Source: Firmicutes bacterium ADurb.Bin080
GTDB lineage: Bacteria; Bacillota; Clostridia; Christensenellales; DTU072
Length of the DNA: 52,187 bases
NCBI GenBank assembly: GCA_002070965.1
Contig: MWEH01000084.1
Coordinates: 1-52,187, forward strand
Direction of reading: 5' to 3'
Both the position numbers and the translations under genes were made by a program. This document shows, piece by piece, positions 1,949 to 35,242 of this stretch. Below the pieces are notes generated by a model, which ran no database searches, was not told the DNA's origin, and was given only the letters and a program-made list of their open reading frames with translations. Positions within the stretch are counted from its first letter, which is position 1. Each line of letters starts with the position of its first letter.

Positions 1949-2701
1949 TTATTTGTCGTAATTAACTATTGCACCAAAATCTTCAGCTTTTAGCGACGCC
2001 CCGCCAATCAATCCGCCATCGATTTCCGGCATAGACATTAATTCTTTTGCGTTTTTAGCATTCATGCTTCCACCATATTGAATTCTCAAAGCATTTCCGA
2101 CGGTCTTTCCATACAATCTTCTAACCGCTTTTCTAATTATGGCTATAGTATCATTTGCCTCTTGTGCTGTCGCAGTTTTACCGGTCCCGATTGCCCAAAC
2201 AGGTTCATAAGCTATTACAACTTGTTTTAAATCTGTTTTCTCTAAGCCTTCAAGAGCTTCGTTGGTTTGACGTACTACTACTGCAGCGGTTTTTCCTTCT
2301 TCTCTTTCTGAAAGAGTTTCTCCCACGCAAATAATAGGTTTAATTCCTGCTAGAATCGCTGCTTTTGCACGAGCGTTAACTGATTGATCGGTCTCGCCAA
2401 AATACTGTCTTCTCTCACTATGCCCAACAATAACATATTCAACCTTTAGTTCTTTAAGCATATCTGCACTGATCTCTCCTGTATATGCTCCCTTTGGGGC
2501 CCAATGTACATTTTGAGCGCCTAATTTAATCTTTGTCCCTCTTATGGCTTTTCTAGCCACCTCGATGTTTGTGAAGGGAACGCAAATCACAACTTCACAA
2601 TTAGCATTTGCAACAGCTGGAACTAGAGAAGCAATGAGCTCCTTTGTTTCAGCTTGTGTCTTATTCATTTTCCAATTTCCTGCAATAATATCTCTTTTCA
2701 T
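1949..2701 (-). CDS. tpiA: Triosephosphate isomerase
   Basis: Interconverts dihydroxyacetone phosphate and glyceraldehyde 3-phosphate; a cytosolic TIM barrel, normally a dimer. The 250 residues are full family length. The catalytic set is visible: Lys11 in GNWKMN, His94 in VGHSERR and Glu166 in AYEPVWAIGTG, followed by the phosphate-binding YGGSMN and the late GLIGGASL loop. The start is preceded by GGAGG at good spacing. It lies 12 bp after pgk and before gpmI on the same strand, so the three are almost certainly cotranscribed from the promoter upstream of pgk. Confidence 0.98.
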   Translation of the reverse strand: MKRDIIAGNWKMNKTQAETKELIASLVPAVANANCEVVICVPFTNIEVARKAIRGTKIKLGAQNVHWAPKGAYTGEISADMLKELKVEYVIVGHSERRQYFGETDQSVNARAKAAILAGIKPIICVGETLSEREEGKTAAVVVRQTNEALEGLEKTDLKQVVIAYEPVWAIGTGKTATAQEANDTIAIIRKAVRRLYGKTVGNALRIQYGGSMNAKNAKELMSMPEIDGGLIGGASLKAEDFGAIVNYDK

Positions 2702-2713
2702 TTTTTTCCTCCA

Positions 2714-3913
2714 TTATTTATTATCAAGACATGAAATTCCTGGCAAATCTTTGCCCTCTAAGTACTCAAGTGAGGCTCCCCCGCCAGTTGAAATATGTGT
2801 CATCCTGTTTCCATAGCCCAATTGTGCGACCGCGCTTGCACTATCTCCTCCCCCGATTATAGTAATTGCATCCGACTCGGCCATAGCTTTGGCCACAGCT
2901 TTGGTCCCCCCAGCAAATTTATCGAATTCGAAAACTCCCATTGGGCCATTCCAGATAACCGTTTTTGCTTGTTTTATTTCCTGAGCAAAAAGCTCCCTTG
3001 TATTAAATCCAATATCCATTCCCATCCATCCATCGGGGATACGAGATGCTTCACTTACGATAATTGAAAGTGTCGCAGCATTGTTAGAAAATTCGCTACC
3101 ATATATGTCATCTACTGGCAACAACAGCTTTACCCCACGATCTTTAGCTTTTTTAATTAATTCGAGGGCTAGATCAAACTTATCCCTTTCACAGATAGAA
3201 TTTCCTATTGCATATCCTTGTGCCGCAAGGAATGTGTATGCCATTCCTCCACCTATAATAACAGTGTCAACCTTATCGAGAAGATTATTGATAACAGCAA
3301 TTTTATCCGAAACCTTCGCTCCTCCCAAAATCGCAACAAAAGGCCTCTTGGGATTTTCTAAAGCTCCCCCCATAATGCTAATTTCTTTTCCAATCAAAAA
3401 ACCGGCAACAGCTGTCTTAACAAATCCGTACTGAACAATTCCAGCCGTAGAAGCATGAGCTCTATGCGCTGTTCCAAAAGCATCATTTACATAAACATCG
3501 CAAAAAGATGCAAGTTTCCTACAAAACTCTTTCTCATTTTCCTCTTCTTCTTTGTGAAACCTAAGATTCTCAAGAAGTACTATCTCTCCATTTTTGCAGG
3601 ATGCAACCTTTTCTTCTGCAGATGGGCCTATTACGTCTTCAGCAAAAGCAACTGGTTTACCAAGCATTTCTGCCAATTTTATTGCTACAGGCTTCAAAGT
3701 ATATTTTTTGTTAAACTCACCCTTTGGCCTTCCCATATGTGAACAAAGGATAACTTTAGCTCCCCTTTCACTGAGATACTTAATTGTCGGAATGGCTCCT
3801 TCAATTCTATTTAAATCAGTAATTACCCCATCTTGCATAGGGACATTAAAATCCACTCTTACGAGACATTTAAGCCCGGATACATTGATGTCTTCTATAG
3901 TTTTCTTACTCAT
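2714..3913 (-). CDS. pgk: Phosphoglycerate kinase
   Basis: Makes ATP and 3-phosphoglycerate from 1,3-bisphosphoglycerate and ADP in the cytosol. The 399 residues fit the family. Motifs seen are RVDFNVPM near the N terminus, [19 protein letters not shown], the hinge-region GGAKVSDK, and near the C terminus the nucleotide-binding IIGGGDSA and [12 protein letters not shown] chose the ATG at 3913 because GGAGG sits 6 bp upstream; the in-frame ATG 12 bp earlier overlaps that ribosome site. It is the first gene of pgk-tpiA-gpmI, and a strong promoter ends about 70 bp upstream. Confidence 0.98.
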
Positions 3914-3980
3914 GATATCCTCCAAAATCTTTCAAAATTCTTTTAAATATGTGGGAAAAATCCCTTAATCTGCGCATTTT

Positions 3981-11627: not shown

Positions 11628-11656
11628 AAAAAAAGGCATCCTTTCTCAGGATGCCT
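11628..11656 (-). terminator. Rho-independent terminator of the 890-residue lipoprotein gene
   Basis: Perfect 9-bp arms AGGCATCCT (11634-11642) and AGGATGCCT (11648-11656) enclose a 5-base loop. Read on the minus strand the hairpin is followed by a run of T (11628-11633 is all A on the plus strand). It lies 29 bp past the stop codon at 11685. Confidence 0.88.
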
Positions 11657-11684
11657 CTAAATAATAAATAACTTTTAGTTTGTC

Positions 11685-14357
11685 TTATTGTCCAGGTGCA
11701 ACTTTGTTTATTACTTTGTACCTTGGATAAAGCCTTATATCAAACCTAAACGAATCCTCCGGCTGAACTTCATAAAGAAGAGCTTCATCCACACACCAAG
11801 CATCGAACTCATAATAGCAATAGTCTGAATTAAAATATTGCCTTCCATTGTTTTCACCAGCTGGTTGATATCTTTGAGTCCCGACAAATGAAAGTTGATA
11901 ATTAGGCTTTTGTCCCCCTCCAGTTCCCGTTAAAACAACTGTAGAAATTTCATCACCCGGGTCCACAGTATCTGTTTCATGTGATGCCCATGTTGCTTGT
12001 TTTGTAGGTATTTCTTGTATTTCCGAGCTTAAATATACAACCTCGGGCGTTCCACCCCACTGCTTTTCAATATCGTAATAATCTGTGAAATCCGAAACTT
12101 TTTTAAATTCCACCTCAATTTGGCCACTCATATGTCTAAATACTTTTTCATGTTCATTTAATAATCTTGACAAGGCCCAGTTTAAGTCATATGTCCTCTC
12201 ACACTCCAAGCGTTCACCTAATTCATTATCATACATATGAGTATCAGACCCATCATAAGGGTCATCCTCTCTTCCGCATTCATCATCGGTCCCGCCACAA
12301 TCCCATACTCTTTTGATTAGCTGGTCTTCAAAATATTCATCGACATAGTAGTCTCCTTGGGGGTTATATCTTTCATAATCTATTGAAAGAGTTTGGGCCA
12401 TATTTGATGCAATGCCAGGCCAATCCGCAGCGTTTGCCCGAGTAATCTGTGATTCAATATCGGTTCCAGAATAATTTGCGTTTAGATTAACATACATCGC
12501 CTTAGTCCGTCCCAGATCTTCTATCTTTTCTTCAACAACCCCTTGCTCTTCAATTTCAGGAAATTGGTTTATAAAAGCATCTTTTTCTTCAGTGTAAATA
12601 TACACATGATCAAAATATTGAAAGGCTCTTTGAAGTTTTCTTCTGTTAATAACCTGCTCCTTTTTGTTATCTTGAATAGCTCTAACATAATCTGCGCTAT
12701 ATGATTTGATCTGATATTGTAAAAACTTTATCAAATCAGAGGAGGTTATTGTATCATGCGTAATTGTATAGTGTTGGCTTTCGAGTTGCTCATATTGAAG
12801 CATAACTTCCTTTATTGCATTAATACCTCTTTGTTCTTTTTGTGAATCTGTTAAGCTGTTCCAATCAGTATTTCTTTTGTTGTATTGATTCACGTTATCA
12901 TATACTCCCGTATATTCATAGTTTACATCAGAAATCTTCAAGCTTTCTGCAAATCCAAGGGCAAGGCCATCTATCATTTCATCCGTATACGTGACCTCAC
13001 TATTTGCTGCATAACCTATTCCGGTTAAATATTCAACAGAATCTGTGTATACTTCCCTGTCTCTAGCCTCCTGAAGGGATTGAAACTCGTATTGAGCTGT
13101 GTAATATTTATTGTAGAAAGAAGCTGAATATCTATATGCTTCCCTATAGCTTCTTCTGTCGTACTCGGTAAATCTTACAGCAATATCAACCCCTTTTGAA
13201 CTTGAACCGTCAATTCCATCAGTAAAATAGTCTTTGTGCCCAAGAAATAGGTAGTCTTCATATTCTGTCCTTGAGCCAACCATAACAGAATCATCAAAAA
13301 CTTCGTGTTCTTTTTTCTCATATTGGTAAGTATAACCATATAGAGTCATTGCTTTTTTTCTGTTATTGCTACTTGCCCTCCAATAATTTTCTGAGTTGGT
13401 GGGTAAGGTTAAATCTGCAAAAGCAAGAAAATATGAAAGAGTTCCTATATCAAACAGCTCTTCTCTCATATAGTCTTTAAATTCATCAGTATCTATGAGA
13501 TTATTATCTGGAGTATCGTCTCCTAATGCAAATAATCCTAACGCCACCTGATTCGCCTTGTAAGCAGGGATCATTACCTCGCTTACAACTTGGATTTGAT
13601 GGTTCATGTATTCCATCTGAAATCTTGCAAACATATCAGCTTCATTGTCAAAAATCTGATAAATTTCCGAATTTATTTTACGCTTTTTAAATTTTGCAAG
13701 ATCTTCCCAGAATTCTTCAGTCTGCCCATACGCTTTAGTATTGTCTCCGTCTCCGTCTGTCAACTTATAATCATCGAAATTATCTCTAATATCAGATATT
13801 TCGTCAAGGTTGTCATAGTCTAGTATCGCACTTCCGTCCCCTCTCGTCAGGGGGTATTTATCAAGGTCTCCCTTTTCAAGCTTATCATAATCACTATCAT
13901 CTCTGGTAATGTATTCCACCAGCTCTATCATTCTATCTTCATCTATTCCGGCAAGAGCCATACGTTCAATTATATCTTCTGCCTCTGAATAGCAAAGTAT
14001 TTTCGTAACTGTCGTCGCATCGTCTTCGATCCAATTATCGTCATCGTCAAAATATGGCTTTTCAAAGGCATAATAATTATCGTTTGACCATTCAGAATCA
14101 CCCCTGTAATCATCTCTGGATTCTTGTTGCTTATCGACAATCTTTTGAGTCTGCGTGGCCAACACTGTCGGGGCATAAATTTTCTTAGGCACAGTTAAAT
14201 ATTCCTCCTGTCCACAATCCAGAAGGTCTGGCAAAATAGCAACTATTGCCTGATTATTGTTGTTAGTAGGTGGTGCGGGTGGTTTACAGGCTGCCATACT
14301 AAAAATTACGGCAATTGCTATGATTAAAACTGCGATAGTAATAATTCTCTTTCTCAT
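11685..14357 (-). CDS. Acidic secreted lipoprotein of unknown function
   Basis: I do not recognise a family. The 890 residues start with a lipoprotein signal peptide: basic MRKR, a hydrophobic stretch, then MAAC with Cys24 as the likely lipidated residue, followed by a Pro/Asn linker. The mature protein is rich in Asp, Glu and Tyr. Asp-rich motifs such as DDDDNWIEDD (104-113) and DGDGDN (201-206, like the start of an EF-hand loop) suggest calcium binding; this is inference. The middle (about 250-650) looks alpha-helical, with KKR- and QQE-rich segments. Cysteines cluster near the C terminus. AGGAG precedes the ATG; promoter and terminator are visible. It lies 225 bp after the giant lipoprotein gene on the same strand, so a shared surface role is plausible. 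Confidence 0.8.
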   Translation of the reverse strand: MRKRIITIAVLIIAIAVIFSMAACKPPAPPTNNNNQAIVAILPDLLDCGQEEYLTVPKKIYAPTVLATQTQKIVDKQQESRDDYRGDSEWSNDNYYAFEKPYFDDDDNWIEDDATTVTKILCYSEAEDIIERMALAGIDEDRMIELVEYITRDDSDYDKLEKGDLDKYPLTRGDGSAILDYDNLDEISDIRDNFDDYKLTDGDGDNTKAYGQTEEFWEDLAKFKKRKINSEIYQIFDNEADMFARFQMEYMNHQIQVVSEVMIPAYKANQVALGLFALGDDTPDNNLIDTDEFKDYMREELFDIGTLSYFLAFADLTLPTNSENYWRASSNNRKKAMTLYGYTYQYEKKEHEVFDDSVMVGSRTEYEDYLFLGHKDYFTDGIDGSSSKGVDIAVRFTEYDRRSYREAYRYSASFYNKYYTAQYEFQSLQEARDREVYTDSVEYLTGIGYAANSEVTYTDEMIDGLALGFAESLKISDVNYEYTGVYDNVNQYNKRNTDWNSLTDSQKEQRGINAIKEVMLQYEQLESQHYTITHDTITSSDLIKFLQYQIKSYSADYVRAIQDNKKEQVINRRKLQRAFQYFDHVYIYTEEKDAFINQFPEIEEQGVVEEKIEDLGRTKAMYVNLNANYSGTDIESQITRANAADWPGIASNMAQTLSIDYERYNPQGDYYVDEYFEDQLIKRVWDCGGTDDECGREDDPYDGSDTHMYDNELGERLECERTYDLNWALSRLLNEHEKVFRHMSGQIEVEFKKVSDFTDYYDIEKQWGGTPEVVYLSSEIQEIPTKQATWASHETDTVDPGDEISTVVLTGTGGGQKPNYQLSFVGTQRYQPAGENNGRQYFNSDYCYYEFDAWCVDEALLYEVQPEDSFRFDIRLYPRYKVINKVAPGQ

Positions 14358-14405
14358 TTTGCTCTCCTTATATTTAGCTTTCTTTAAAGAGTTTCCATCA
14401 TATAT

Positions 14406-14434
14406 ATTTTAAATCACATTCATGTGCTTTTCAA
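14406..14434 (-). promoter_or_regulatory. Promoter for the 890-residue lipoprotein gene
   Basis: On the minus strand TTGAAA (14429-14434), 17 bp, then TAAAAT (14406-14411), about 50 bp before the ATG. It gives this gene its own start site even though it follows the giant gene. No terminator is evident between the two, so readthrough is also possible. Confidence 0.55.
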
Positions 14435-14582
14435 TATTGTCTTTCCTAATTGATATTTGTCCAGTAATCCTTATATACCATTACCTGCTAGTATTCTATC
14501 ATATCTTTAAATTTTTATCCTTAGTCTCTAATTTCCCCTATACCGACTTATTGCAACTAACGCCTTACCAAAGAATTGTATA

Positions 14583-17500
14583 TCATGGAGCCACTCGCAA
14601 ATAACTGCGATACGGAGTCCAAAATGAATTGTTAGTATACGAAGTTAGTGCATTCAGATTTGGAACATTTATTGTTGTGATCCCCTGAAGAACATCTCCT
14701 CTTCCTAAACTACAGGGGGTAGGGTTAAGCATAGTTAAAGAAGTAATACCACTTCCATAGAAAGCATTCGTACCAATATGAGTAACATCTAGAGGTACTG
14801 AATACTCACCGTCGGGGGCAATTCCCTTGAAGAATAGCAGTCTAATATTATCATCATTATTGCCAACGATGTAGGCTGTATTGTTTGAAAGCAAATTGAA
14901 CCAAGAAGTGCCTTTAAACGCATCTATTCCAGTTTCCTCAATCCATCCAGTTAGTGTAACGCTCGAAAGGGCAGTGCATCCATTAAAAGCGTTATTTGGT
15001 ATCTGAAGCCAGTTGTTTAAAGCGGAGAAGTCGACCGAAGTAATAGATGTGTTTCCAGTAAATACATTCTTTCCAATGAAATTAATGCCAGCGGGAATTA
15101 TCACTTCAGTATCGCTTGAAATATATGCCAACAACCTTGTGTTGTTTAGAATTATAAACTTTGTGTTCCCGTTGTTGACTGAATAATTAGCGAGCCAAGG
15201 AGTTCCTTCAAAAGCAGATATTGCAAGTTCTTGTAAAGAATTATTCAGTATTACATTCTCCAAAGAAGTACATCCTACAAACTCACCGTTTGCAATCGAA
15301 ACGGTTTGAGTTGCACTAAAGCTTATTGACTGAAGGGAGGTGTTCCCCTTGAAAACGTAACCATATACACCAATCAAATTACTCGGTAGCACTATTGAGG
15401 TAGAAATCCCATTATATGCAAACAACTTGTTGTTGTAATGGGCAAATTCGCCCTTTCCAATCAACCATAAAGTACCCTTGAAGGCATTTTCGCCTATATA
15501 AGCTTTACTTGGCAAGGTAACGCTGTTCAATGAGGTACAGCCACTAAATGAGTTTTCTGGGATTATGAACTCGTTTTGACTTGTTGTATTAAATCTAACG
15601 CTAGAAATTGACTTATTGTTCGTGAATACTCCATATGCCATAGAAGTGATGTTCGACGCTATTTCGATATTTGTATTCCTTCCAATGTACATTAGGAGTT
15701 TATTACCCGCAGAGATGAATAATGAAGGAGAATTATCTATCCAATATGTGTTATAGAAAGCTCTATATTTCACTTCCCGTATCCAATCTGTAAGGTTTAC
15801 TGTTGTAAGGCTTACACTTCCCTTGAAAGCTTTTGATCCGATTGTAATTTCAGAGGTTCTATTTGCAAAAGATAAAGAAGTAATATTCGAATTTTCAAAA
15901 GATAAGTCTGCGATCAAAGATACATTTGACGGGACAGTAATGTCTGAATCAATCCCTTCATAGCCCAACAAAATACCATTAATTACTACATATCCATCGT
16001 TGTCAGAGGCAAGTGCGGAATAATACAATGTATTCCTGAATGTATGGGCACCAAGCGTTTGAATTAACCCTACGTTAATTACCGAGGCTAAGCTTGTACA
16101 GCCATAAAAAGCATAATCCTCTAAAGAAACTGGATTAGCATCAAAAGCCACACTGACTATGGAAGTATTCCCTTCAAATACATAGCGAGGAACAAAACTC
16201 ACAGAGGAAGGAATTATCACATCTGTTTCCAAGTCTTTATACCCAACCAATATTCCGTTTACTATTACAAAATCATCAAGGTTATTATCAAACCAAGGTG
16301 TGCCCAAAAATGCATCTTGTCCAATCGAATTAATCAATGAATTAAAGGTTATGGAGGATAACGAAGTTGCCCCAGAAAAAGCTTCTCTAGGAATAGCTTG
16401 AATCAATGTTTGAGATAAATCAAGAGAAGTAATAGAGGTGTTATTTCTGAAAACATCCCCTGTTAATCCTTTTACCGAAGAAGGTAGCGTTACGGATCCA
16501 CCTAGGCCATTGTATTTGATTAAATAACCATTTCCTGCAAGAACAAATTCAGCAGTTTTTGATGTGAACCATGGCGTTTCTTCAAATGAATTCTCACCCA
16601 TAGTAACATTCGCGCTTAACTCCACTTGAGTAAGTGCAGTACAACCACTGAACACATAGTCCGGAAGGAAAAGCCCTTTATCCAATGTTACTCTTGTTAT
16701 TATCCTGTTGTTTCTGAAAGTCCATTCACCAATTTCAGTTGTTTGAGAGGGAATAGTTACTGTTGTTCTCGTACCTACGTATCTTATTAGCTTGTATTCC
16801 TTCGTATATGAGTCCTCATATACAATGAATCCACCATTTGATCCTGTTTGGACTAAACTTAACCAAGGAGTATTCAGAAACGCCTGAGAGTCTACATAGT
16901 TGACACTTTCTGAGAGTTTCACCGATGCGAGCATAGTGCAATTGGCAAATGTATTAGCTTCGATAGTATCTATTACTGAATACTTATCAAATTCCAACGA
17001 AGTAATTACGTTATTTCCAGCAAAAACATAAGGATAGATTTTTTCAACTTCTTTAGGAATATATACTGATTCAGAAGTGCTCCTGTATGCTACAAGCAAG
17101 CCATTAATTATTACTAACCCTGTTTTGTTTTCCAGCCATAGAGTATTCTTGAAGGCATCCTGTCCAATAGAGTTAACCGATAACGGAATATTAGATATAT
17201 CTTCTAATTTCAAACATCCAGAAAATGCACCCGGAGGAATTTGTGATAATGTTGACCCTGGTCCAAATTCAACGCTTACTATATCCTCGTTTCCTCTAAA
17301 AGCATCTGCACTAATGGAAGTAATTCGGTAATCTATGAATACATTGGGAGATACTCCCTTGTATTTAATAAGTACGCCTGCAGGATTTGCTCCGCCCGGA
17401 GTAACATAATCGTTCTGAACGTCATCAAGCCATTTAGTTCCAGTAAAGGCATCCCTTCCTACAGTTTGCAAGCCGGTAGGCCAAAGAATTTCTTCAACAG

Positions 17501-20500
17501 AGTACCATCCATTAGCATATTCACTTACTATATCGGTTACACCGGTAGTGAAAGCTAAAGTAGTAATATTAGGCAAAATATCATTTCGTCCAATCAGCGT
17601 TTTGATTGGGAGACTACCATCAGAATTAAAGGCAAAAACCGATGGAATGGATAGAAGATTGTACATATCATTAGCTGAAATTGATGCTCCTGACTCTAAG
17701 ATAATTCTCGGTGGGTCAGTAACTGCACCGAGCGTTACGGAATAAACCGATGAATCAATTGTGTAAGGTCCAGATCCGGTATGTTTATAAACGACATATT
17801 TCCCATCCGCCCTTAAAGCCCTGTTAAGATTGAATCCCGTATTTGTAAAGGCATCTTTCCCTATTGAAGAAATGTTGGGCGTGAAAACTGAATATTCGTT
17901 AAGAGGAACACTAGTAAGAAGATCGCATCCATAAAAAGCCTCTTTACCAATATGTTGCAAGATTGACGATGCTCCACCCCAAGTAATAGTATTCAAATTT
18001 TCCAGATCTTTAAAAGCCCCATCGGCGATTATTTTAACATCTGCGGTGAGTTCAATTGTTAATACGTCTGGGTCCCCTAGATACTTGACTACAGTCTTTC
18101 CCTGAGTATAAGTGCCTTCAAGTATCAAAAGGCCGGAGGGATTCATTGTAAATTGAGTCCCGGTAAAGGCACTTTGTGCAACAGTTCTTAAGGAATCGGG
18201 GGCATTAAAGTTATTGAACCCGGTGCATCCATAAAAAGCATTATCCATAATTGTGTGAGCTTTGCTTCCTTGTTCGAATCTTAGGGTTGTAAAAGTAAGA
18301 GAACTTGACCATGTCCATGACCCCGGAGATCCTGAAGCCATACTGAATGCTCCCGTATTTATTATCTGTACATTTGCGGGAACATTTATGGTCGAAGAAG
18401 TGCCCTTGTATTTATACAAAACCTTATCAGCGGCGACAACAAAGTCGCTCCCATAACCAGAAATATAATAATTTTGGAACCATGAAGTATCTTCGAGGGA
18501 GTTTACGCCCAAAGACTCTATGGAAGCAGGAAATGCCACTTGGCTAATATCTGTCCAACCGCTTAACATTTCATCTACTGTCGTTAAAGCTCCATCTATT
18601 ACTTCAATAGATATAATAGATTCCGGACGAAGATTTAAATCTTGCGGTTCCCCAACCAGTACGATTTCAAGAAGATCATCGAGAGTAACTGAACCAAGGT
18701 AGTTGACTTTATATAACCCCGTTTCATTAATTAGTGATGTAATTTCTTTTCCTGAAATCTCCCTATTTAAAATATTCTCTGACTTATTTATCGTCAACTC
18801 TTCTAAATATGCAAGATTTGAGAAAGTATTTGGAGTAACTGAATCGTCTATATTTATCGAAACAGAACTAACCCCTGACATAAACACATTGTTGCCTAAA
18901 GAGATTATTGTGTAATCGTTAATATCATGAGATATCGTATCAGGAATTATAACTTCCGGAGACTCTCTTAAGGATACTTGTGGGTATAGCGAAACAACTA
19001 TTGAGTCTCTGTTATAACTTGGAGTATCGTCTGGGATATCGTAAGTGATATAAGAGTCTCTCAACCAATTTAGAGTTGATTGTGATTTGTCTCCTGCGAG
19101 GGTCGTTATAAGGTAGCTACGCATTCTTACTTCAAGAAGAAGGTTCCCTTCTATGCTTCTCTTAAATGATCTTTGAATCTCTTTAGTAATAAGAGGAACA
19201 TCTGGTTCAATTTTTGGGGCAAATGTTAGCCATCCAGTTATATCAGCTTGATAATCAGATAATCTTTCTCCTTTGACGAAAACCTCTCTTCCATCCCCTA
19301 CAGTGAAACTATTCTGTTCAACAGATGGAATTTGAGAGGAATGAGCCAAAAAGACTTTTGTCAGCCAAGGAGAATCAGCAAAGGCATAAGCCTCTATTGT
19401 TTGAACATTATCGGGGATATAAACGACCTCTATATGTTCGTTGTTTTTGAAAACTCCGTATCCTACCGTTTTAACAGAGGAAGGTAAAGTTAAAACATTG
19501 TTGACACCCTTGTAGTCCACTAGTATGCCATCTAAAACGACGATGAAATCCTGCTCTATCGAGTTCATCCATCCCGTTCCAGTAAAAGCTCTTTCCTTAA
19601 TTGATTGTAACAATATGTTTCTTGCAGAAATTAACGCTGCATCAAGCTCCGACTCAAGAGGTGTTACTATTAATTCATCTCCGGAAATGCTTAGTATATT
19701 GATATTTGTAACGTACTCGCAATCTTCCAAAAATGCAGATTCCACTACTTCCTGTCCAACAAGTATATTTACGGTATTTATGTGCGATGGGAGAATCCTT
19801 GTTCCTAATACATCTTTAATACTGTACCCTGAGGCAGAGGAAATAGAAGTCATACTTGGATTAGACAGAAGTAGCGAGTACAATAAATCATCATCTGTCT
19901 TAACAGAAGCAAAATTCGGGGCAGAAATTGAAAGAGTAGCCAATCTGGTGATTCCCGCAAAAGCAAATGACTCTACAGTGGCGGAGATATTGAGGCTTAA
20001 ATTTGTTGTAGCTCTTGAAAGAGCATTGTCCGATATCTCTGTAACAACACCTTCCAAGTTCTCTGGGACAAAACAATTAATCGAATTACCAAAGAATTTT
20101 ATAAGCTTAATCCCAGCAACTGATCCTTCACTGTATATCCACTTTCTATTTTCGTCAAGTTCATAGCTAATGGACATTCCGGTTTCATAGTTAATTCCGT
20201 ATCCTAGTGAAATAGCCAGATCGTTATAACTTGCCTTCTGAGTTCCATCTAATCCATTATCTACAAAAATCTCAATTCCTGGAACCGATATGCCTCCTAC
20301 AACTCTTCTCAAGGTATTTGTTAGAAAATCAGCCCCCCTTAGAGGAACTTCAGTTGTCCCAAAAATTGCCAAAGTCCCCAACTTGGACGCAGATTCAAAA
20401 GCATAATTCCCAAAACTGATAAATCCATCTGGGACAGCAACAACTTCCAAAGATGAACAGTACCTAAACGCACTCTCTCCGATATATCTTAACGATGAAT

Positions 20501-23500
20501 TCTCTATATCCTCTGGAATTACATGCGTAATTTGAGTGTTTCCATAAAAAGCTCTCGAAAGAATTCTCTTTACGCTTGATGGAATCATAACAACTGGAGA
20601 AAGAGAAGCGTGTTGTTTGAAGGTATACAAAATACCATCTCCAACAATAACTGATCCATAATCTCTGTCTTCCAGCCACTTGGTACCTTGGAAAGCATTT
20701 AGACCTATTGTTGTAATAGTTGAAGGCAATCCTTCCACCATAACCTCAATATCTTCTTCATCCGACACATAAAAATCTTCAAGTTGATAACATCCGCTAA
20801 ACGCATCATTCCCAATAGAATTGAGCGTGTAATATGGGCTAGATTCATTTGTCTTGAAATATATCTCCCTAAGGGATGTACATCCTGAAAATGCATTTTC
20901 CCTAATATCTTGAATGCTGGTATCCATACGAACTATTTCGATTGAAGCACAGTTCAGGAACATATTAGCAACAATATACTCATCTTTTTCAATAATTTCC
21001 ACTTCTTTTATTTTAGATGGGGGATAGCCTTGAAAGATGTCAATGAGGGGTTTTGAAGAAGATACGGAAAACTTATTTAAGTTTGCCCCACCATTATTAT
21101 AAACATATGCTAAATCAAAATTTGATATAGGAACGGTGTTGTTAATGACTCTCAAGGTTATGTTGTTAAGTTGTGTTGCCCCTGAGAAAGCATCCCGTTC
21201 AAATTCAACAGAAGACTCAAAAGTAACTTGAAGGACTCTTGGGTCAAAGATGAAATCTGCCATTCTGGATACATTGTATTCATCGTCAGAAAAATAAGTC
21301 AGGACTGAAGAAGGCACTGTAACAAATTCACTGTTTCCAAGATACTGAACTAATTTAATACTTGTTCCATCAAAAACAAACGACCAGTCTCCATCGACGG
21401 AAACATTTTCTATATCGATAAGTTTTCCTTGATCATACAATTGGTGCCAGTTTTCATTAGCCCAAGAACTTCCGGAAGCATATCTTGAGACATCTGGAAC
21501 ATATACTTTTAGGAAAGAATAGGAACTGTCCTTTCTGAAAAATACATCTTTACCTAAATTAATAGGTGACACTGTATCAAAGTAAACCTGTGCTAATTTA
21601 ACATTATTTGCAAAAGCCCCATCCCCAATGGAAGTAACTGAAGAAGGTATTTGAACGACGGTAAGCGAACTACATCCAAAAAATGCGTTTTTACCTATGG
21701 AAATAACACCCTCGGGAATCGTGATGTTTTCAAGAGAAGTGTTTCCATAAAAAGCAAAGTCCCCTATGCTTTCCATTTCTGTACCAGCTTTATAAGTGAC
21801 ATTGGTAAGGGAAGTACATCCGTTAAAAGCATTCGTAGTGACAGATCTAACGAAAGCGGGTATTTCAACCGAAACTAACGAAGTGCAGTTTTCAAACGCA
21901 TTATTAGCTATTTCTGTTAACGTGTTGGGCAATTCTATTGAAATCAATCCTGCTGCAAGAGTTGGATTAGAATATAAAGCACGGTATCCTATGCCTATTA
22001 CTGGCAAATTATTATAGTAATTGGGAATCCTTACATTCGATAAAGAACTCTCAACATTAGCCATCGATGATACAATGTATCCGGTTCCTAGATCATTTAG
22101 AGTGAATGTTATTCCTGGAGTTGGATTGACTGTCGCACTTTCCCATTTAGCGTACACTGTATAGTCTGATGAAAGAGGCTGATATGCTTTCCCTCCCTGA
22201 GTGTCCCACCTTGTCTCAAATTCTGGTTCGTTATACCACCCTAAAAATACAAATCCAGACCAGGTAGGAGATTGGGGAATTGCCGGAACAGTACCATATT
22301 GCGCTACAAAGTCCGCTGGCTCTCCAAAGACATTCTCAGGGTTTGTTGAAACATTAAATGTGACGGTGTATTGATTAATTAAATATCTAGCAGCAAAATC
22401 GCTGTCTTCTCCAAATACATGCACCATCTGACCTGGCAAAGCAATAGACTTTACGTTAAGTGGCAAATTATTTGCCGCTACATCTATCCACCCTACGCTT
22501 TCATCCATCAGCATGCTACCACACGAGTTCTTCCAGGACTCAGTTCCGAGTCCAGGATTTACTGGAGGATTTTCTCTATAAATCTCATCCTTAAATAAAA
22601 TTAGTTTACCTTCTGTGTAGTAATGTGTACCTGTTTTTGTGGTGTTGTTGTTTGTTATAACCCAATAAGAGACATCGTTTACAATCTTACGCTCAATTGA
22701 ATACCTGGCTGTATTCCAACCAGTAAATGTGTACCCTGTTCTAATAGGATCTAATATATTTCCTCCGCTTCCGAAAGTGTAGTAATCATTAAAACTTTCA
22801 GTAGTAGAAAAGTTCTCTAACTTTTGAGTTTCATCATATCTGTTCGAAACTGTAAGAATGTAACTCTTAATGGAATAAACAGGCTCCAAAGTAATGCTTT
22901 GCGTAATTGGATTCATACTTCCGCCGATCGGAATTACAACCCTCCAACCAGTAAACGAGTATCCTTCTTTTTCTGGGCGTGAAATTCCTAATCCGTTAAA
23001 TATTGTTTCCGCATTTGACCCATATTGTACCGATGGCTCCTCATGAAGCACTTGATTGAAAGCGTCCCTCCAAGTAACCTCAAATGTTTTAAACACAAAC
23101 ACAGCGTTAAAAGTCATATTTGAAGTAACTGGTTGTTCTATCGGAATTTCTGGCTCCCATCTAACAAAAATTTTGCCGACGCCATCAAGGTAATTTTCTA
23201 TATATTCTTGAGAAGGAAGTTCCCTTGCTGAGTTGTATTCAATGTCTGTAGAATAAGTGTACTGAGCATCTACAACATAATCCACCTTGTAAACAAGTTT
23301 TACATATTGAGGTCTAACAAACAAATTTTCCCTGATTTGCGTATTATTCCAGAAGTTCATGCCTGCCTCATCAGTGAATACTCCTCCTTCATATAAAAAC
23401 CATTTAGCTGAATGGCCTAATTTTTCCGGAATAGCCGGCAATGATGTCACTTTACCACCATCCACTATGGAATAAAGGCCCCCTGAAACCAAACTTCCAT

Positions 23501-25430
23501 ACTCATCTTGGAATTGAACTTCCCATATGTTAAGCCAATTTGCGTATAAGTTAATGGAAGTTTCCTGTTTTATTAAATTGGTATCTAAATCCCATTCTGA
23601 GGAAAGTATTTCATCCGAATACCATCCTTCAAACTGATGTCCTTCGTAAGAAGGAATAGGTTGAGACAAAGCAATTAAACTATCATATAAACCGGCCAAA
23701 GAATAGTAGTTTAACCCAGTATCTTCATTAACATAATTACCCCTTGGATATACGTTAATGTTTACCGTTTTGGGTTCATAAAGTGGATAAACTTTTAAAT
23801 TCCCCGAAATAAATGCATAATCTTCCCTCCATCCGACAAAGTTATACCCTGTCTTTAAAGGACTTATTCCCGGATCAGTTGCAGCGTTTCCATAATCAAT
23901 ATTTTGAGTTTGAAGTACAGTCCCGTTTTCCGAACAAAACTCTACAGTATAGTTATCTATTGTAAAAATAGCCACAACTTTCAAATCGCTTATTACCGGA
24001 TTAAAAGCAGCATCATCTATATCCCAGGTGGAAGAATATCCCGTAATCCTGGGAGATTCTGGTTTTGTTATATTTCTGTTTTCTCTGACAGGAAACCTTG
24101 AGTAAACTTTATACTCAACATCCTCCCCACCCTCGTTGTATTCCTTTGTTTCGGTAAGATCGGGGAAATACGAAGAAAAATCTGGATCAATCAAGAAAAA
24201 CACTTGGTACTCTCGAATCCATTTTGCGTATAGTGTAATGTCCTTATCGACTGTTGTAAGAGAAAAGTTCCATTCGACAGTGCACCCTATATCCTTATAC
24301 CAACCATCGAAAGAATACCCTGCTCTAATAGGATCTTCCGCTGGCTCATCTATTACATTCCCATGTATGACATTTTCCAAAGAATAATAAATTGGGGTAG
24401 TGGTTTCATAGTTAACATTAAAGTTAATATCATATTCTTTGCTGATATATACCGCTTGTACAGTCAAATTGCTCACTATATTGTTGTATGATACATTCCA
24501 TGTCCCTGAGTATCTAGTGTTGTTTATAAAGTTTGGAGGATTAATCGAGTTAATTTCCCCTGAATATGCTGGGTCGGTACTCATGTCCGTTCCATAAGGC
24601 ACATTGTTAAAAGAACGTAGTCTCTGAAGAGTAATGCCATCCGTATCCATATAGCAAAAAACAACTTGGAACGTTTTTATTGTGTATACACTTTGAGTTG
24701 TAATGTTTGACTGAACATTTGTAAAAACTAACCTGTCCCAGGCCCCTACCTTGCCCTCTATTTCGGGCACAGATGGGACACTACTTAGTGTCTCTCCCGA
24801 TTTAACATATCGAATAATTGGTGTAAGGTCATCTCCCTCGGTAGGGAAAAAAGTAACTGTATAAAGCTTTGCCCATTTAGCATAGAGAACTGTGTCTGAG
24901 GTTATTTTATCAACACTGAAATTCCATCTGTTATTGAAGGTTCTTTCTTTATACCAACCATCAAAAGCATATCCTGCACGTACTGGGTCCGCGGGCAGAG
25001 TCGCCGTTCCATAGCTGGGAACCTCTTGTTCCTCGATTTCTTGGTTACCTTCCCCAGTGTCAAAAGAGAGGGTATATTTTACCGATGAACTTACAACATC
25101 GCTTACAGAAACAGTAAAAACGGTTTGTTTCCCTTTGTATTCTATTACAACTGAGAGACTTTCCTTAGGCTTATCACTCTTAAAATTCATTACCACTATA
25201 TCTTGGCGAATATCTGTGAGAGCAACTGTAGATTCTACCCCATCGGTTCTTTTTATTATTATTTTTATGCCCGACAAATCTATTTCATCGCCAATATAGT
25301 AAGTAGTTTTATAATCGCTCGAGGGATCAATAGAAATGCTCTCGACACTAACCTCAGAACAAGCGGTTAAAAGAATTATCCCCAAAACCGCGAGTATAAG
25401 TATCAGTGAAACCGAAAGCTTTTTTAACAT
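14583..25430 (-). CDS. Giant surface lipoprotein with InlB-like B-repeats and BspA-type leucine-rich repeats
   Basis: A 3615-residue predicted surface protein. Residues 1-24 are a lipoprotein signal (lipobox LTAC, Cys24). Residues ~28-115 resemble a bacterial Ig-like domain. Residues ~117-1100 hold about 12 modules of the InlB/Listeria-Bacteroides B-repeat type; the clearest have GYxFDGWY and TLYAKW, while several are degenerate, and the eleventh carries an insertion of roughly 80 residues. From ~1105 to the end are LRR_5/BspA-type repeats (pattern I..xAFxGCTSLxxVxIP). From about residue 1580, at least 15 breaks of the form AFxGTxW followed by a GxLxxYKG strand divide the array into units of about 90 residues. 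There is no C-terminal anchor. The ribosome site GGAG and a consensus promoter support the start. Family members act in adhesion or host and protein binding; the exact role here is unknown. Confidence 0.92.
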   Translation of the reverse strand: MLKKLSVSLILILAVLGIILLTACSEVSVESISIDPSSDYKTTYYIGDEIDLSGIKIIIKRTDGVESTVALTDIRQDIVVMNFKSDKPKESLSVVIEYKGKQTVFTVSVSDVVSSSVKYTLSFDTGEGNQEIEEQEVPSYGTATLPADPVRAGYAFDGWYKERTFNNRWNFSVDKITSDTVLYAKWAKLYTVTFFPTEGDDLTPIIRYVKSGETLSSVPSVPEIEGKVGAWDRLVFTNVQSNITTQSVYTIKTFQVVFCYMDTDGITLQRLRSFNNVPYGTDMSTDPAYSGEINSINPPNFINNTRYSGTWNVSYNNIVSNLTVQAVYISKEYDINFNVNYETTTPIYYSLENVIHGNVIDEPAEDPIRAGYSFDGWYKDIGCTVEWNFSLTTVDKDITLYAKWIREYQVFFLIDPDFSSYFPDLTETKEYNEGGEDVEYKVYSRFPVRENRNITKPESPRITGYSSTWDIDDAAFNPVISDLKVVAIFTIDNYTVEFCSENGTVLQTQNIDYGNAATDPGISPLKTGYNFVGWREDYAFISGNLKVYPLYEPKTVNINVYPRGNYVNEDTGLNYYSLAGLYDSLIALSQPIPSYEGHQFEGWYSDEILSSEWDLDTNLIKQETSINLYANWLNIWEVQFQDEYGSLVSGGLYSIVDGGKVTSLPAIPEKLGHSAKWFLYEGGVFTDEAGMNFWNNTQIRENLFVRPQYVKLVYKVDYVVDAQYTYSTDIEYNSARELPSQEYIENYLDGVGKIFVRWEPEIPIEQPVTSNMTFNAVFVFKTFEVTWRDAFNQVLHEEPSVQYGSNAETIFNGLGISRPEKEGYSFTGWRVVIPIGGSMNPITQSITLEPVYSIKSYILTVSNRYDETQKLENFSTTESFNDYYTFGSGGNILDPIRTGYTFTGWNTARYSIERKIVNDVSYWVITNNNTTKTGTHYYTEGKLILFKDEIYRENPPVNPGLGTESWKNSCGSMLMDESVGWIDVAANNLPLNVKSIALPGQMVHVFGEDSDFAARYLINQYTVTFNVSTNPENVFGEPADFVAQYGTVPAIPQSPTWSGFVFLGWYNEPEFETRWDTQGGKAYQPLSSDYTVYAKWESATVNPTPGITFTLNDLGTGYIVSSMANVESSLSNVRIPNYYNNLPVIGIGYRALYSNPTLAAGLISIELPNTLTEIANNAFENCTSLVSVEIPAFVRSVTTNAFNGCTSLTNVTYKAGTEMESIGDFAFYGNTSLENITIPEGVISIGKNAFFGCSSLTVVQIPSSVTSIGDGAFANNVKLAQVYFDTVSPINLGKDVFFRKDSSYSFLKVYVPDVSRYASGSSWANENWHQLYDQGKLIDIENVSVDGDWSFVFDGTSIKLVQYLGNSEFVTVPSSVLTYFSDDEYNVSRMADFIFDPRVLQVTFESSVEFERDAFSGATQLNNITLRVINNTVPISNFDLAYVYNNGGANLNKFSVSSSKPLIDIFQGYPPSKIKEVEIIEKDEYIVANMFLNCASIEIVRMDTSIQDIRENAFSGCTSLREIYFKTNESSPYYTLNSIGNDAFSGCYQLEDFYVSDEEDIEVMVEGLPSTITTIGLNAFQGTKWLEDRDYGSVIVGDGILYTFKQHASLSPVVMIPSSVKRILSRAFYGNTQITHVIPEDIENSSLRYIGESAFRYCSSLEVVAVPDGFISFGNYAFESASKLGTLAIFGTTEVPLRGADFLTNTLRRVVGGISVPGIEIFVDNGLDGTQKASYNDLAISLGYGINYETGMSISYELDENRKWIYSEGSVAGIKLIKFFGNSINCFVPENLEGVVTEISDNALSRATTNLSLNISATVESFAFAGITRLATLSISAPNFASVKTDDDLLYSLLLSNPSMTSISSASGYSIKDVLGTRILPSHINTVNILVGQEVVESAFLEDCEYVTNINILSISGDELIVTPLESELDAALISARNILLQSIKERAFTGTGWMNSIEQDFIVVLDGILVDYKGVNNVLTLPSSVKTVGYGVFKNNEHIEVVYIPDNVQTIEAYAFADSPWLTKVFLAHSSQIPSVEQNSFTVGDGREVFVKGERLSDYQADITGWLTFAPKIEPDVPLITKEIQRSFKRSIEGNLLLEVRMRSYLITTLAGDKSQSTLNWLRDSYITYDIPDDTPSYNRDSIVVSLYPQVSLRESPEVIIPDTISHDINDYTIISLGNNVFMSGVSSVSINIDDSVTPNTFSNLAYLEELTINKSENILNREISGKEITSLINETGLYKVNYLGSVTLDDLLEIVLVGEPQDLNLRPESIISIEVIDGALTTVDEMLSGWTDISQVAFPASIESLGVNSLEDTSWFQNYYISGYGSDFVVAADKVLYKYKGTSSTINVPANVQIINTGAFSMASGSPGSWTWSSSLTFTTLRFEQGSKAHTIMDNAFYGCTGFNNFNAPDSLRTVAQSAFTGTQFTMNPSGLLILEGTYTQGKTVVKYLGDPDVLTIELTADVKIIADGAFKDLENLNTITWGGASSILQHIGKEAFYGCDLLTSVPLNEYSVFTPNISSIGKDAFTNTGFNLNRALRADGKYVVYKHTGSGPYTIDSSVYSVTLGAVTDPPRIILESGASISANDMYNLLSIPSVFAFNSDGSLPIKTLIGRNDILPNITTLAFTTGVTDIVSEYANGWYSVEEILWPTGLQTVGRDAFTGTKWLDDVQNDYVTPGGANPAGVLIKYKGVSPNVFIDYRITSISADAFRGNEDIVSVEFGPGSTLSQIPPGAFSGCLKLEDISNIPLSVNSIGQDAFKNTLWLENKTGLVIINGLLVAYRSTSESVYIPKEVEKIYPYVFAGNNVITSLEFDKYSVIDTIEANTFANCTMLASVKLSESVNYVDSQAFLNTPWLSLVQTGSNGGFIVYEDSYTKEYKLIRYVGTRTTVTIPSQTTEIGEWTFRNNRIITRVTLDKGLFLPDYVFSGCTALTQVELSANVTMGENSFEETPWFTSKTAEFVLAGNGYLIKYNGLGGSVTLPSSVKGLTGDVFRNNTSITSLDLSQTLIQAIPREAFSGATSLSSITFNSLINSIGQDAFLGTPWFDNNLDDFVIVNGILVGYKDLETDVIIPSSVSFVPRYVFEGNTSIVSVAFDANPVSLEDYAFYGCTSLASVINVGLIQTLGAHTFRNTLYYSALASDNDGYVVINGILLGYEGIDSDITVPSNVSLIADLSFENSNITSLSFANRTSEITIGSKAFKGSVSLTTVNLTDWIREVKYRAFYNTYWIDNSPSLFISAGNKLLMYIGRNTNIEIASNITSMAYGVFTNNKSISSVRFNTTSQNEFIIPENSFSGCTSLNSVTLPSKAYIGENAFKGTLWLIGKGEFAHYNNKLFAYNGISTSIVLPSNLIGVYGYVFKGNTSLQSISFSATQTVSIANGEFVGCTSLENVILNNSLQELAISAFEGTPWLANYSVNNGNTKFIILNNTRLLAYISSDTEVIIPAGINFIGKNVFTGNTSITSVDFSALNNWLQIPNNAFNGCTALSSVTLTGWIEETGIDAFKGTSWFNLLSNNTAYIVGNNDDNIRLLFFKGIAPDGEYSVPLDVTHIGTNAFYGSGITSLTMLNPTPCSLGRGDVLQGITTINVPNLNALTSYTNNSFWTPYRSYLRVAP

Positions 25431-30838: not shown

Positions 30839-32638
30839 TTAGATTGGTTTTTCAATATATACCATTGCAGTATCTTTCGGCAACTCATTTAGTACCCTTC
30901 CATCTATTTCATTCTTCAAATATTTGGGTAAAAATAGAGAGCTTTCAGATAAATTCACAATAGTTTTTAGATTTCCCCTGTCAATATATAGTATCTTTCC
31001 TTCACTACGCATAGATATATCAGAATCAATAAAACAACCCTTATATCTCTTCCTTAAGTCTCCAAGATTTCTGTAGTGTGAAACAATATCAATATCCCCT
31101 CCGGTAGTTGGAAATGTGCCTCTATTCATTGGATCTTCAAAACCTTGCATACCGGTTTCATCGCCATAATACACACTTGGAACCCCAGGTAAAACATATT
31201 GAAGAATTGATGCAATTTTTAAAAGATCTTTACCTCTTTTGTACTCTTCGGGATTCAAACGATAAATACTTCTTGAAAACTTCGTCTTTGGAGGATTATT
31301 TATACCAAGTTCAGTGAGGATACGAATGGTATCGTGTGAACCAAGTAGCGTCATGCATGAATTTAATACACATTTGGGGTAATTTTCACAAATATCATAA
31401 ACTGAGTTGATGAAACTCTCTATATGTTTTTCTTTTAGTAACTCAATTATTGAATTTCTAAATGGATAATTCATAACCCCATCTAATTGGTTCCCTAACA
31501 AATATTTTCTCTTTTCTCCATAACTTTCTTTCGTGCTAGCATCTTCCCACACCTCCCCGATAACTGAGACCTCATCTCCATTATCTTTACAAGACTTACG
31601 TATTTTTTCTACAAATGCCGAGGAAAGTTCGTCAACAACATCTAACCTCCACCCCTTAATTCCCGTTTTTGTCCATTTTTCTATAACCCCTCCCTTGCCT
31701 GCTATCATATCCTGGAACTGATTCGAATTTCTCTTTATGGTTGGGACTACAGTAACCCCCCACCAACATTCATATAGGTCGGGCCATTCATAAAAAGTAT
31801 ACCAATCATAGTATGGACTTTGCTTTGATTGATACGCCCCGATGCTTGTATAATGATTTAACTTGTTAAAATAAATACTATCAGAGCCGGTATGGTTAAA
31901 TACTCCGTCCAAAATAATACCTATGTCATTTCTTTTGCATTGCTCAATGAGTTCCTTGAATTCATCCTCATCCCCAAAAAGAGGATCTATCTTAAAATAA
32001 TCTCCTGTGTCATATCGATGATTGCTTGAGCTCTCAAAAATAGGCGAAAGGTAAATAGAGGTAATCCCTAAAGATTTCAAATAGGCAAGCTTGGAAATAA
32101 TCCCCTTGATATTACCTCCATAAAAGTCATCTGCTCGATAACCACTTTGATCTCCAATGGAGAGATTTTGGTACCATGACTTGAACACTCCCCGGATTGG
32201 CCTTTTATCGTCCTCCTTTCTACAGAAACGATCTGGGAAAATATGGTAAATTATTCCACCTTTAATCCATTCTGGGGTTTTAAAGTCACATTTAAAAACT
32301 GTTAATTGCCATTCAGGAAGCCAGTCTCCAATAAGAGCCTTTCCATCCCTTCCTCTTCCGACAAAAATAGTGCCTTCGTAGGTATATATTTCAAAACGAT
32401 AATAGTATATGCCCGGATTATCTGCGGAAAAAGCACAAACAAATATATTATCTTCTTTGTCTTCTCCTAAAAATTTTAATGGAATAGTCCTTACAATACT
32501 CTCTTTTCTCAGGACTAAGCTCGCTCCAATAATTGATATAGATTTATTGATTGGAAACTTAATGCTTATAAGTTCTCTTTCAGAAACAGCCCCAAAAGGT
32601 TTTTTATATTCTGTTTTTCTAGAATCAAAAGAAAGCAT
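30839..32638 (-). CDS. GH13 alpha-glucan hydrolase (neopullulanase/cyclomaltodextrinase-like)
   Basis: Cytosolic alpha-1,4 or alpha-1,6 glucan hydrolase, likely trimming glycogen or maltodextrins. The 599 residues start with an N-terminal beta-sandwich (about 1-120), as in neopullulanases. The GH13 barrel follows, with DGVFNHTG (region I), GWRLDVVDEL (nucleophile Asp), VIGEVWED (acid/base Glu) and LLGSHDTIR (third Asp). There is no signal peptide. I prefer ATG at 32638, with AAAAGG five bases upstream, over a GTG six bases earlier. It follows glgP by 186 bp on the same strand; that gap holds AT-rich DNA and no convincing promoter or terminator. Confidence 0.9.
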   Translation of the reverse strand: MLSFDSRKTEYKKPFGAVSERELISIKFPINKSISIIGASLVLRKESIVRTIPLKFLGEDKEDNIFVCAFSADNPGIYYYRFEIYTYEGTIFVGRGRDGKALIGDWLPEWQLTVFKCDFKTPEWIKGGIIYHIFPDRFCRKEDDKRPIRGVFKSWYQNLSIGDQSGYRADDFYGGNIKGIISKLAYLKSLGITSIYLSPIFESSSNHRYDTGDYFKIDPLFGDEDEFKELIEQCKRNDIGIILDGVFNHTGSDSIYFNKLNHYTSIGAYQSKQSPYYDWYTFYEWPDLYECWWGVTVVPTIKRNSNQFQDMIAGKGGVIEKWTKTGIKGWRLDVVDELSSAFVEKIRKSCKDNGDEVSVIGEVWEDASTKESYGEKRKYLLGNQLDGVMNYPFRNSIIELLKEKHIESFINSVYDICENYPKCVLNSCMTLLGSHDTIRILTELGINNPPKTKFSRSIYRLNPEEYKRGKDLLKIASILQYVLPGVPSVYYGDETGMQGFEDPMNRGTFPTTGGDIDIVSHYRNLGDLRKRYKGCFIDSDISMRSEGKILYIDRGNLKTIVNLSESSLFLPKYLKNEIDGRVLNELPKDTAMVYIEKPI

Positions 32639-32824
32639 GGTCACCTTTTAGAAATTTTTCGTAAGTAAGATTTATTTATTAGAACCTCGGTATTAACATA
32701 GTGTTTTAGAGATATAACTGGCTTATATGGAAAACAAATTCTATACCATAAGATATATAAATTTTGTTCTTAGTTATATTATTCAAGGTTCTCAAGAAAG
32801 CTTTCAAAAACACACAACAAATAT

Positions 32825-35242
32825 CTATCTATCTTTATCTAATCTCCAGATTTTTGTTGCGTATTCCTCAACACTCCTATCTGCGGCAAAAAATCCCGAT
32901 CTTGCTGTGTTTTTCAGGGACATCCGTTGAAATCTATATTTATCTTTATATGCAATATCAACAGCATCCTGTGCATTTACATAACTGTCAAAGTCAGCTA
33001 GTACGAAATATGGGTCAGCTTGGCCACATTTCCCTAGCGTCATACTATCTGCAATTTCTCCGAATTTAACCCCACATAGACCCTCTCTAAGTAGCGCTAT
33101 GATATTTCTTATCCGCTCATCATGGGAGTAGTATTCTGTTGGATAATATATTGGGCGTAGCTTATCCACCTCATCGGCAAAGAGGCCGAAGATAAATATG
33201 TTTTCATCCCCAACTCTTTCATGAATTTCTACGTTAGCTCCATCCATTGTCCCTATTGTAACTGCTCCATTTATCATGAATTTCATATTTCCAGTTCCTG
33301 AGGCTTCCTTACCTGCTGTAGAAATCTGTTCACTGATTTCAGCGGCTGGCATAATAATTTCGGCTAAACTGACCCTGTAGTTTTCTAGAAATACTACCTT
33401 GATTTTTCCGTTAATCTGAGGGTCATTATTAACCATTTCTCCAATCATGTATATAAGTCGGATAATAAGTTTAGCCATGTAATAAGAACTAGCTGCTTTT
33501 GCTCCAAAAATAAAGGTCCTAGGAGTTATATCCAAGTTTGGATTTTCTTTAAGCCTTAAATACAAGTTTAAAATATTAAAAGCATTTAGTAATTGCCGTT
33601 TGTACTCATGCAATCTTTTTACTTGGACATCAAATATACTACTTGGGTCAACAGTTACGCCATTTGATTTAGATATATATTCAGCAAGCCTCTGTTTGTT
33701 TTTATATTTTATTTCCTTCCATCTATCTAAAACATCGTGATCTCCTTGAAATTTTTCTAATTTCTCCAAATGGCTTGCATCTGTAAGGAATTTGCTCCCA
33801 ATCAATTCAGTTATAAAATCACTGAGTAAGGGATTGGCTTCAGCAAGCCATCTCCGGTGTGTAATTCCGTTTGTAACATTCATAAATTTTTCAGGAGAAA
33901 TCTTGTAATAGTCTGCAAATATGGTTTTTTTCAAAATTTCTGTGTGCAAGGCAGATACTCCATTAACAGTATGAGAAGAAGCCAAACACAAATTTGCCAT
34001 CCTTATTTCACCATCGGACATTATAGCATTACTTGAAATTCTCTCCCAGTCCCCAGGAAAAGCATTCCATAAATTAGTACAACATCTTTGATTAATTTCT
34101 TTTACAATTTGATGAATCCTTGGCAAAAGGGAAGAAAACAAGTTTTCAGGCCATGTCTCAAGAGCTTCTTGCATTACTGTGTGATTAGTATAACTTACTG
34201 TTTCTGTTACTATTTTCCAGGCATCCTCCCATGAATACCCGTAATCGTCCAAAAAAATTCTCATTAACTCAGGGATACAAAGTGTGGGATGGGTATCATT
34301 TATATGAATTGCAACTTTGCTAGAAAAGGAATCTAAGGATCCATTGTATTTTAGATGCTTATTGATGATACTCTGAATACTAGCTGAAACAAAGAAATAC
34401 TGCTGCTTCAATCGAAGGCTTTTGCCTTCATAGTGATTGTCTGCGGGGTATAATACTTTAGATATAGCCTCAGCAATCGCCTTAGCTTCTATTGCTTTAA
34501 GGTATTCTCCCCGAGAAAACAAAGACATATCCAATTGAACTGGGGCCGTTGCACTCCACAATCTCAATACATTTACTGCATCACTATTGTATCCGCTAAC
34601 ATTAACATCATAAGGAACCCCAATAACCTCGGTAGCACCTTTATGTTCAATCTTTAATTTTCCATCTTCCCATTTTTCCTCTATATATCCTCCAAACTTA
34701 ACAGAACAATGCTCACTTCGAGCATTGAACCACACATCCCCTTCCTTAAGCCATTCGTCGGGCATTTCCATTTGCCACCCGTCAATAATCTTTTGACTAA
34801 ATATACCGTAATCGTATCTTAAGCAAAATCCACTGGCAACATAATTCCTTGCCGTTAAGCTGTCCAGGTATGCTGCAGCCAATCTTCCCAAGCCCCCGTT
34901 CCCGAGCCCGGCATCTGGTTCAATGTCCATCAGCTTTTCAATACTGAACCCCATATCAGATACACAATCAGTGGCAAGGTCAAGAATGCCTAAATTGTAT
35001 AAATGATTCTTAAGAGATCTTCCCAAAAGAAACTCCATCGACATGTAATAAACTTGCTTAAGTCCTTTTTTCCTTACTTTAGCCTTAAAATCGACTCTTT
35101 TTTCTGTAAGAATATCTTTTACCACCATGCATAAAGCTCTATACATAATGTTATCTGAAGCCTCTTTGTATTTTAAACCAAAGTTTATCGCGAGCTTATT
35201 TTCCAAAAGCTCTCTAAATTCCATTTTGTTAATTTTAGCCAT
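32825..35242 (-). CDS. glgP: Glycogen/maltodextrin phosphorylase
   Basis: Releases glucose 1-phosphate from alpha-1,4-glucan ends using phosphate; PLP-dependent and cytosolic. The 805 residues are full length. Diagnostic parts are PDAGLGNGGLGRLAA near residue 90, the glucan-binding WNAFPGDWE area, DVQVKRLHEYKRQLLN, and the PLP-lysine region ISTAGKEASGTGNMKFMING with TIGTMDGANVEI. Of two adjacent ATGs, the second (35242) has the better distance from AGGAG. It lies 62 bp after glgA in the glycogen block, which so contains both synthesis and breakdown. Confidence 0.96.
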   Translation of the reverse strand: MAKINKMEFRELLENKLAINFGLKYKEASDNIMYRALCMVVKDILTEKRVDFKAKVRKKGLKQVYYMSMEFLLGRSLKNHLYNLGILDLATDCVSDMGFSIEKLMDIEPDAGLGNGGLGRLAAAYLDSLTARNYVASGFCLRYDYGIFSQKIIDGWQMEMPDEWLKEGDVWFNARSEHCSVKFGGYIEEKWEDGKLKIEHKGATEVIGVPYDVNVSGYNSDAVNVLRLWSATAPVQLDMSLFSRGEYLKAIEAKAIAEAISKVLYPADNHYEGKSLRLKQQYFFVSASIQSIINKHLKYNGSLDSFSSKVAIHINDTHPTLCIPELMRIFLDDYGYSWEDAWKIVTETVSYTNHTVMQEALETWPENLFSSLLPRIHQIVKEINQRCCTNLWNAFPGDWERISSNAIMSDGEIRMANLCLASSHTVNGVSALHTEILKKTIFADYYKISPEKFMNVTNGITHRRWLAEANPLLSDFITELIGSKFLTDASHLEKLEKFQGDHDVLDRWKEIKYKNKQRLAEYISKSNGVTVDPSSIFDVQVKRLHEYKRQLLNAFNILNLYLRLKENPNLDITPRTFIFGAKAASSYYMAKLIIRLIYMIGEMVNNDPQINGKIKVVFLENYRVSLAEIIMPAAEISEQISTAGKEASGTGNMKFMINGAVTIGTMDGANVEIHERVGDENIFIFGLFADEVDKLRPIYYPTEYYSHDERIRNIIALLREGLCGVKFGEIADSMTLGKCGQADPYFVLADFDSYVNAQDAVDIAYKDKYRFQRMSLKNTARSGFFAADRSVEEYATKIWRLDKDR

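Follow-up and report, generated by a model that had tools for sequence, protein, structure and literature searches.

A two-gene locus for a giant repeat lipoprotein and a family-restricted partner lipoprotein in a clostridial draft genome

Locus organization

The window, meaning the whole stretch of 52,187 nucleotides that was analysed, is contig C84 of a 2.65-Mb draft genome (G000, 202 contigs) of Firmicutes bacterium ADurb.Bin080. Two lipoprotein genes lie in tandem on its minus strand, a giant one and, directly downstream, a smaller one, hereafter the partner; the positions reported for both open reading frames by the first-pass annotation of this DNA proved exact. The features of the locus are as follows.

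11632..11658, minus strand: intrinsic terminator after the partner gene (11 pairs followed by a T-run; the only strong terminator-like site)
11685..14357, minus strand: partner lipoprotein gene, 890 aa, family-restricted (open reading frame list and homologue searches)
11709..12125, minus strand: probable divergent InlB-type repeat at the partner C-terminus, about residues 745-883 (profile comparisons)
12153..14030, minus strand: novel Tyr-rich core of the partner, residues about 110-735 (invariant residues; no homologue outside the bacterial family)
12201..12299, minus strand: partner C687-x6-C694...H707...C719 cluster, resembling a metal site or disulphide (Cys conservation)
14286..14357, minus strand: partner signal peptide and lipobox, MAA-C24 (N-terminal sequence, homologue alignment)
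14358..14582, minus strand: intergenic gap of 225 nt, terminator-free by terminator scan (median 69 nt in relatives)
14364..14369, minus strand: partner ribosome-binding site AAGGAG (read in the sequence; aligned in two congeners)
14583..25430, minus strand: giant lipoprotein gene, 3615 aa (open reading frame and domain matches; orthologues in relatives)
14727..21947, minus strand: BspA-type LRR region of the giant, about residues 1162-3568 (LRR_5, E 3e-167, 15 stretches)
22068..25076, minus strand: giant stalk of InlB/List_Bact-type repeats, about residues 119-1121 (Flg_new, E 1.2e-58, 6 stretches)
25104..25313, minus strand: Big_3 Ig-like domain of the giant, residues 40-109 (Pfam, E 6.6e-6)
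25359..25430, minus strand: giant signal peptide and lipobox, LTA-C24 (Cys24 invariant in 18 orthologues)

A comparison of two species gave dN/dS values of about 0.06 and 0.08 for the two genes at a dS near 1, indicating that both are real genes under strong purifying selection. The proposed lipidation site at Cys24 of both proteins is in keeping with their N-termini, MRKRIITIAVLIIAIAVIFSMAAC and MLKKLSVSLILILAVLGIILLTAC; each protein combines a signal peptide with a conserved lipobox cysteine, and the genome encodes a single lipoprotein signal peptidase (LspA). Acidity, which had been taken as a distinguishing trait of the partner, does not set it apart, because the calculated pI is 4.38 for the partner and 4.47 for the giant. 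An Rfam search of the window gave no matches, and no tandem repeats were found at the DNA level. Elsewhere in the window, a glycolytic cluster (PGK, TIM, iPGM; 281-3925) and a glycogen/starch cluster (30839-41063) are ordinary.

The first-pass annotation had also seen no terminator between the two genes and a strong one after the second, and both observations held (none in 14358-14582; the strong one at 11658-11632). In 21 relatives, the gaps between giant and partner range from 42 to 1300 nt with a median of 69 nt. Terminator-like hairpins were found in none of 21 gaps (the window and 20 relatives; the longest gap scanned over its initial 400 nt), whereas 12 of the 21 genomes, the window among them, have one in the 150 nt downstream of the partner. 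This contrast is somewhat biased, since the downstream stretch scanned exceeds most of the gaps in length. Against an operon, the 225-nt gap of the window contains a promoter-like site, but the promoter scan is uninformative, as it found about as many sites as chance predicts (49 found, 48.7 expected).

The giant lipoprotein

The giant is a recognisable, already known kind of protein, and its initial description as an InlB-repeat/BspA-LRR protein is borne out by one Big_3 domain, six Flg_new/InlB-type stretches, and 15 LRR_5 stretches. The matches lie well above the model cut-offs, with 548 bits for LRR_5 (Pfam cut-off 27.7), 195.5 bits for Flg_new (cut-off 27), and 104.6 bits for TIGR02543 (cut-off 20.95). 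In the last part of the protein, a unit of ~90-110 residues opens with GT-x-W. Whole-protein models fall far short of their cut-offs on the giant, namely InlA (81 of 1600 bits), InlH/InlC2 (79.1 of 1050 bits), and the HupY/LrrG adhesin (115.9 of 1250 bits). In one relative (G039), the giant is found as two abutting frames of 2145 and 1450 aa (L042:6985-17771), which reflects either a recent frameshift or faulty assembly.

Among known systems, the closest likeness is to BspA-type (TpLRR) proteins such as BspA of Tannerella forsythia, which are exported, as the giant is predicted to be, and share the LRR_5 repeats that occupy most of its length. BspA and the related LrrA, both located at the cell surface, promote co-aggregation, and BspA binds fibronectin and fibrinogen (PMC2843621). 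The giant differs from BspA in its predicted lipid anchor, its size of 3615 aa, its InlB-type stalk, and its fixed operon partner. Proteins with the InlB B-repeat or Listeria-Bacteroides repeat (Flg_new, TIGR02543) form a second point of comparison, since six such stretches occur in the giant and what looks like a divergent copy ends the partner; the lack of a whole-protein model match and the predicted lipid anchor separate the giant from the class 1 internalins of Listeria. Apilactobacillus kunkeei is also reported to encode very large extracellular proteins in consecutive genes, although these belong to a different lineage and the comparison here covers size and gene layout (PMC12863079).

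Two other large frames occur in the same genome. One uninterrupted frame of 11351 residues (C138:35136-69189; L122, L123), which starts with a hydrophobic segment and carries one or more InlB-type repeats, encodes a putative surface protein even larger than the giant. A frame of 4306 residues (C169:15083-28001; L124) contains InlB-type repeats and ends in a membrane segment followed by basic residues, which suggests that it is anchored otherwise than the giant.

The partner lipoprotein

The first-pass annotation recognised no family for the 890-residue protein, which remains correct for its core but not for its C-terminus, where it resembles the InlB-type repeats of the giant. Nothing in Pfam or NCBIfam matched the partner above cut-off, a profile search of the PDB returned no match at E values up to 10, and no relatives were found in IMG/VR or among phage records. 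Tyr accounts for about half of the invariant residues in 28 partner homologues, suggesting a role in structure or ligand contact rather than in catalysis, and enzyme-like invariant residues are absent from the homologue alignment. A rough propensity estimate gives largely helical structure for residues 110-300 and beta structure for the C-terminus; the first part of the core is thus probably largely helical. In the Cys/His cluster, nine partner members from genera g1 and g4 all keep C687, C694, and C719, and the cluster is missing from g2, g3, g10, and g11. An AlphaFold2 model made from two sequences, the partner and a relative (L032) from an uncultured 'Clostridia bacterium' MAG, reached a pLDDT of 28.5 and was unusable.

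The C-terminal pattern Y-x-F-x-G-W-Y-x-D ... YDI-x-LYPGY resembles the second half of the InlB-type repeat of the giant. Profile-profile comparison of the two gave 85-88% with pairwise E values of 3e-6 to 6e-6, compared to 0.2-0.9% for two controls. Independently of this result, the partner family profile also matches the InlB-type repeat of an unrelated Big_2/LRR lipoprotein, and Flg_new is matched by four of the 28 partner members (best E 0.0014), the protein of the window itself being unmatched. Two candidate relatives were rejected: a 562-aa lipoprotein (L093, genome G080) matches the partner in its InlB-type repeat only, and an 856-aa lipoprotein of the same genome as the window (C133), considered as a paralogue, matches in the signal peptide only.

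Profile searches of 396 genomes of the order found the partner core only in the taxonomic family of the window, matches outside the family being confined to profile positions 1-118 (N-terminal) or 675-811 (C-terminal). Searches with the core only in 391 genomes of the class and 398 of the phylum, both sampled broadly, matched only the window's own genome, with no other family member among the matches. As judged from these comparisons, the partner core constitutes a protein family of its own, new and, as far as searched, limited to one bacterial family.

Distribution of the two genes

Of 40 genomes from this uncultured clostridial family, 39 have exactly one copy of the partner, the exception being 68% complete. 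A giant orthologue is found in 27 of the 40 and is absent from the 13 genomes of genera g6 and g9. It was called by an N-terminal profile in 26 genomes (at least 161.9 bits), to which G034, whose giant has its N-terminus off the contig, was added; in g6 and g9, no score exceeds 93.8 bits, and unrelated proteins elsewhere in the order reach up to 115.3 bits. Proteins with InlB-type repeats are common in the order. The giant lies directly upstream of the partner on the same strand in all 24 testable genomes that carry it, contig ends having removed three of the 27 from the count (G006, G009, G032). Co-occurrence, which had been put forward as a check on the pair, held from the side of the giant wherever it could be assessed and failed in part from the side of the partner. 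A partner that usually occurs without a giant had been named as refuting the pair, and a partner without a giant is found in 13 of the 40 genomes, those of g6 and g9. The reverse, a giant without a partner, was seen only in G009, which is 68% complete and in which a contig end falls inside the giant. Dependence thus runs in one direction only, and the partner cannot exist just to serve this giant.

The near-universal, single-copy occurrence of the partner and its presence without a giant in g6 and g9 could also mean that it acts independently as a core surface lipoprotein, with a ligand-binding or envelope task of its own, and that the giant was inserted or kept in the operon and shares expression only. 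The partner tree, which follows the genera, fits such independence in that its midpoint root separates the giant-less g6 and g9 from the rest; with a single split, one gain or one loss of the giant suffices, in either direction. The same holds for g6, in which the partner is still found near LuxS. However, the partner is never separated from the giant where a giant exists, even when both flanks have changed, and the C-terminus of the partner looks like the InlB-type repeats of the giant, so we regard independence as tenable but clearly not the leading explanation. In some g9 genomes (L062, L065, L095), the gene for an ABC exporter is found one or two genes past the partner, and the upstream genes vary, including those for hydrogenase subunits and lysyl-tRNA synthetase.

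Gene neighbourhood

The genes for LuxS, an M29 peptidase, an acyltransferase, a GNAT protein, and an AMP ligase also keep their position in many genera, so that shared descent accounts for part of the linkage between giant and partner, and the 24 paired genomes do not represent 24 independent events. Taken to its end, this would make the adjacency nothing but ancestral gene order preserved in a conserved block, the two genes being functionally unrelated. Such a reading seems improbable, because the pair is intact in g2 and g3, where neither flank matches the genes of the window, and because short terminator-free gaps separate the two genes yet a terminator often follows the partner. The sister genus g7 keeps the older neighbours, indicating that at least one rearrangement spared the pair.

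LRR solenoids are known to bind proteins and glycans, and a Na/Pi-cotransporter gene is located 3′ of the partner in several relatives, but the idea that the giant mainly captures nutrient polysaccharides or proteins for a membrane-proximal receiver, the partner, instead of serving adhesion is very doubtful, as no importer or degradative enzyme was constantly linked to the pair in the neighbourhoods compared and the partner has no enzyme-like invariant residues.

Proposed function and implications

On balance, and with somewhat better than even confidence, we favour an operon of two genes whose products, both surface lipoproteins anchored in the membrane, function jointly. A joint role is suggested by the adjacency in 24 of 24 testable genomes, the short terminator-free gaps, the survival of the pair through flank change, the lipoboxes, purifying selection, and the resemblance of the partner C-terminus to the InlB-type repeats of the giant. 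Both proteins would be held by lipid anchors on the outer side of the cytoplasmic membrane. The giant may form an adhesin-like fibre, in which a lipid anchor, an Ig-like domain, and an InlB-type beta-grasp stalk would carry a very long LRR solenoid of the BspA type; this solenoid could make contact with polymers or with the surfaces of hosts or microbes. The partner would be a core surface protein of the bacterial family, with a novel Tyr-rich domain and an InlB-type repeat at its tip, and most likely acts next to the giant at the membrane, where it might provide a base or help in folding or presentation. Since partners occur without a giant but giants were not found without a partner, the partner is best regarded as a surface protein that the giant depends on or works with. 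The original proposal that the partner assists the giant is thus retained insofar as the two form a conserved unit, but not as a role solely for this giant, given g6 and g9.

A broader possibility, to which we give rather little weight, is that the partner family acts as a new type of lipoprotein factor for folding, anchoring, or presenting giant repeat lipoproteins at the membrane, its InlB-type module engaging their stalks; in g6 and g9, the clients would be other InlB/LRR giants of the same cell.

The limited set of literature searched contained no description of the pair, which is apparently undescribed so far, and to our knowledge accessory factors for such InlB-type giants are not generally known. 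In the favoured joint-function operon, the partner, being single-copy, near-universal in one family, and locked to the giant where the giant is present, is a testable candidate for such an accessory factor, and it may serve as a marker protein for the lineage.
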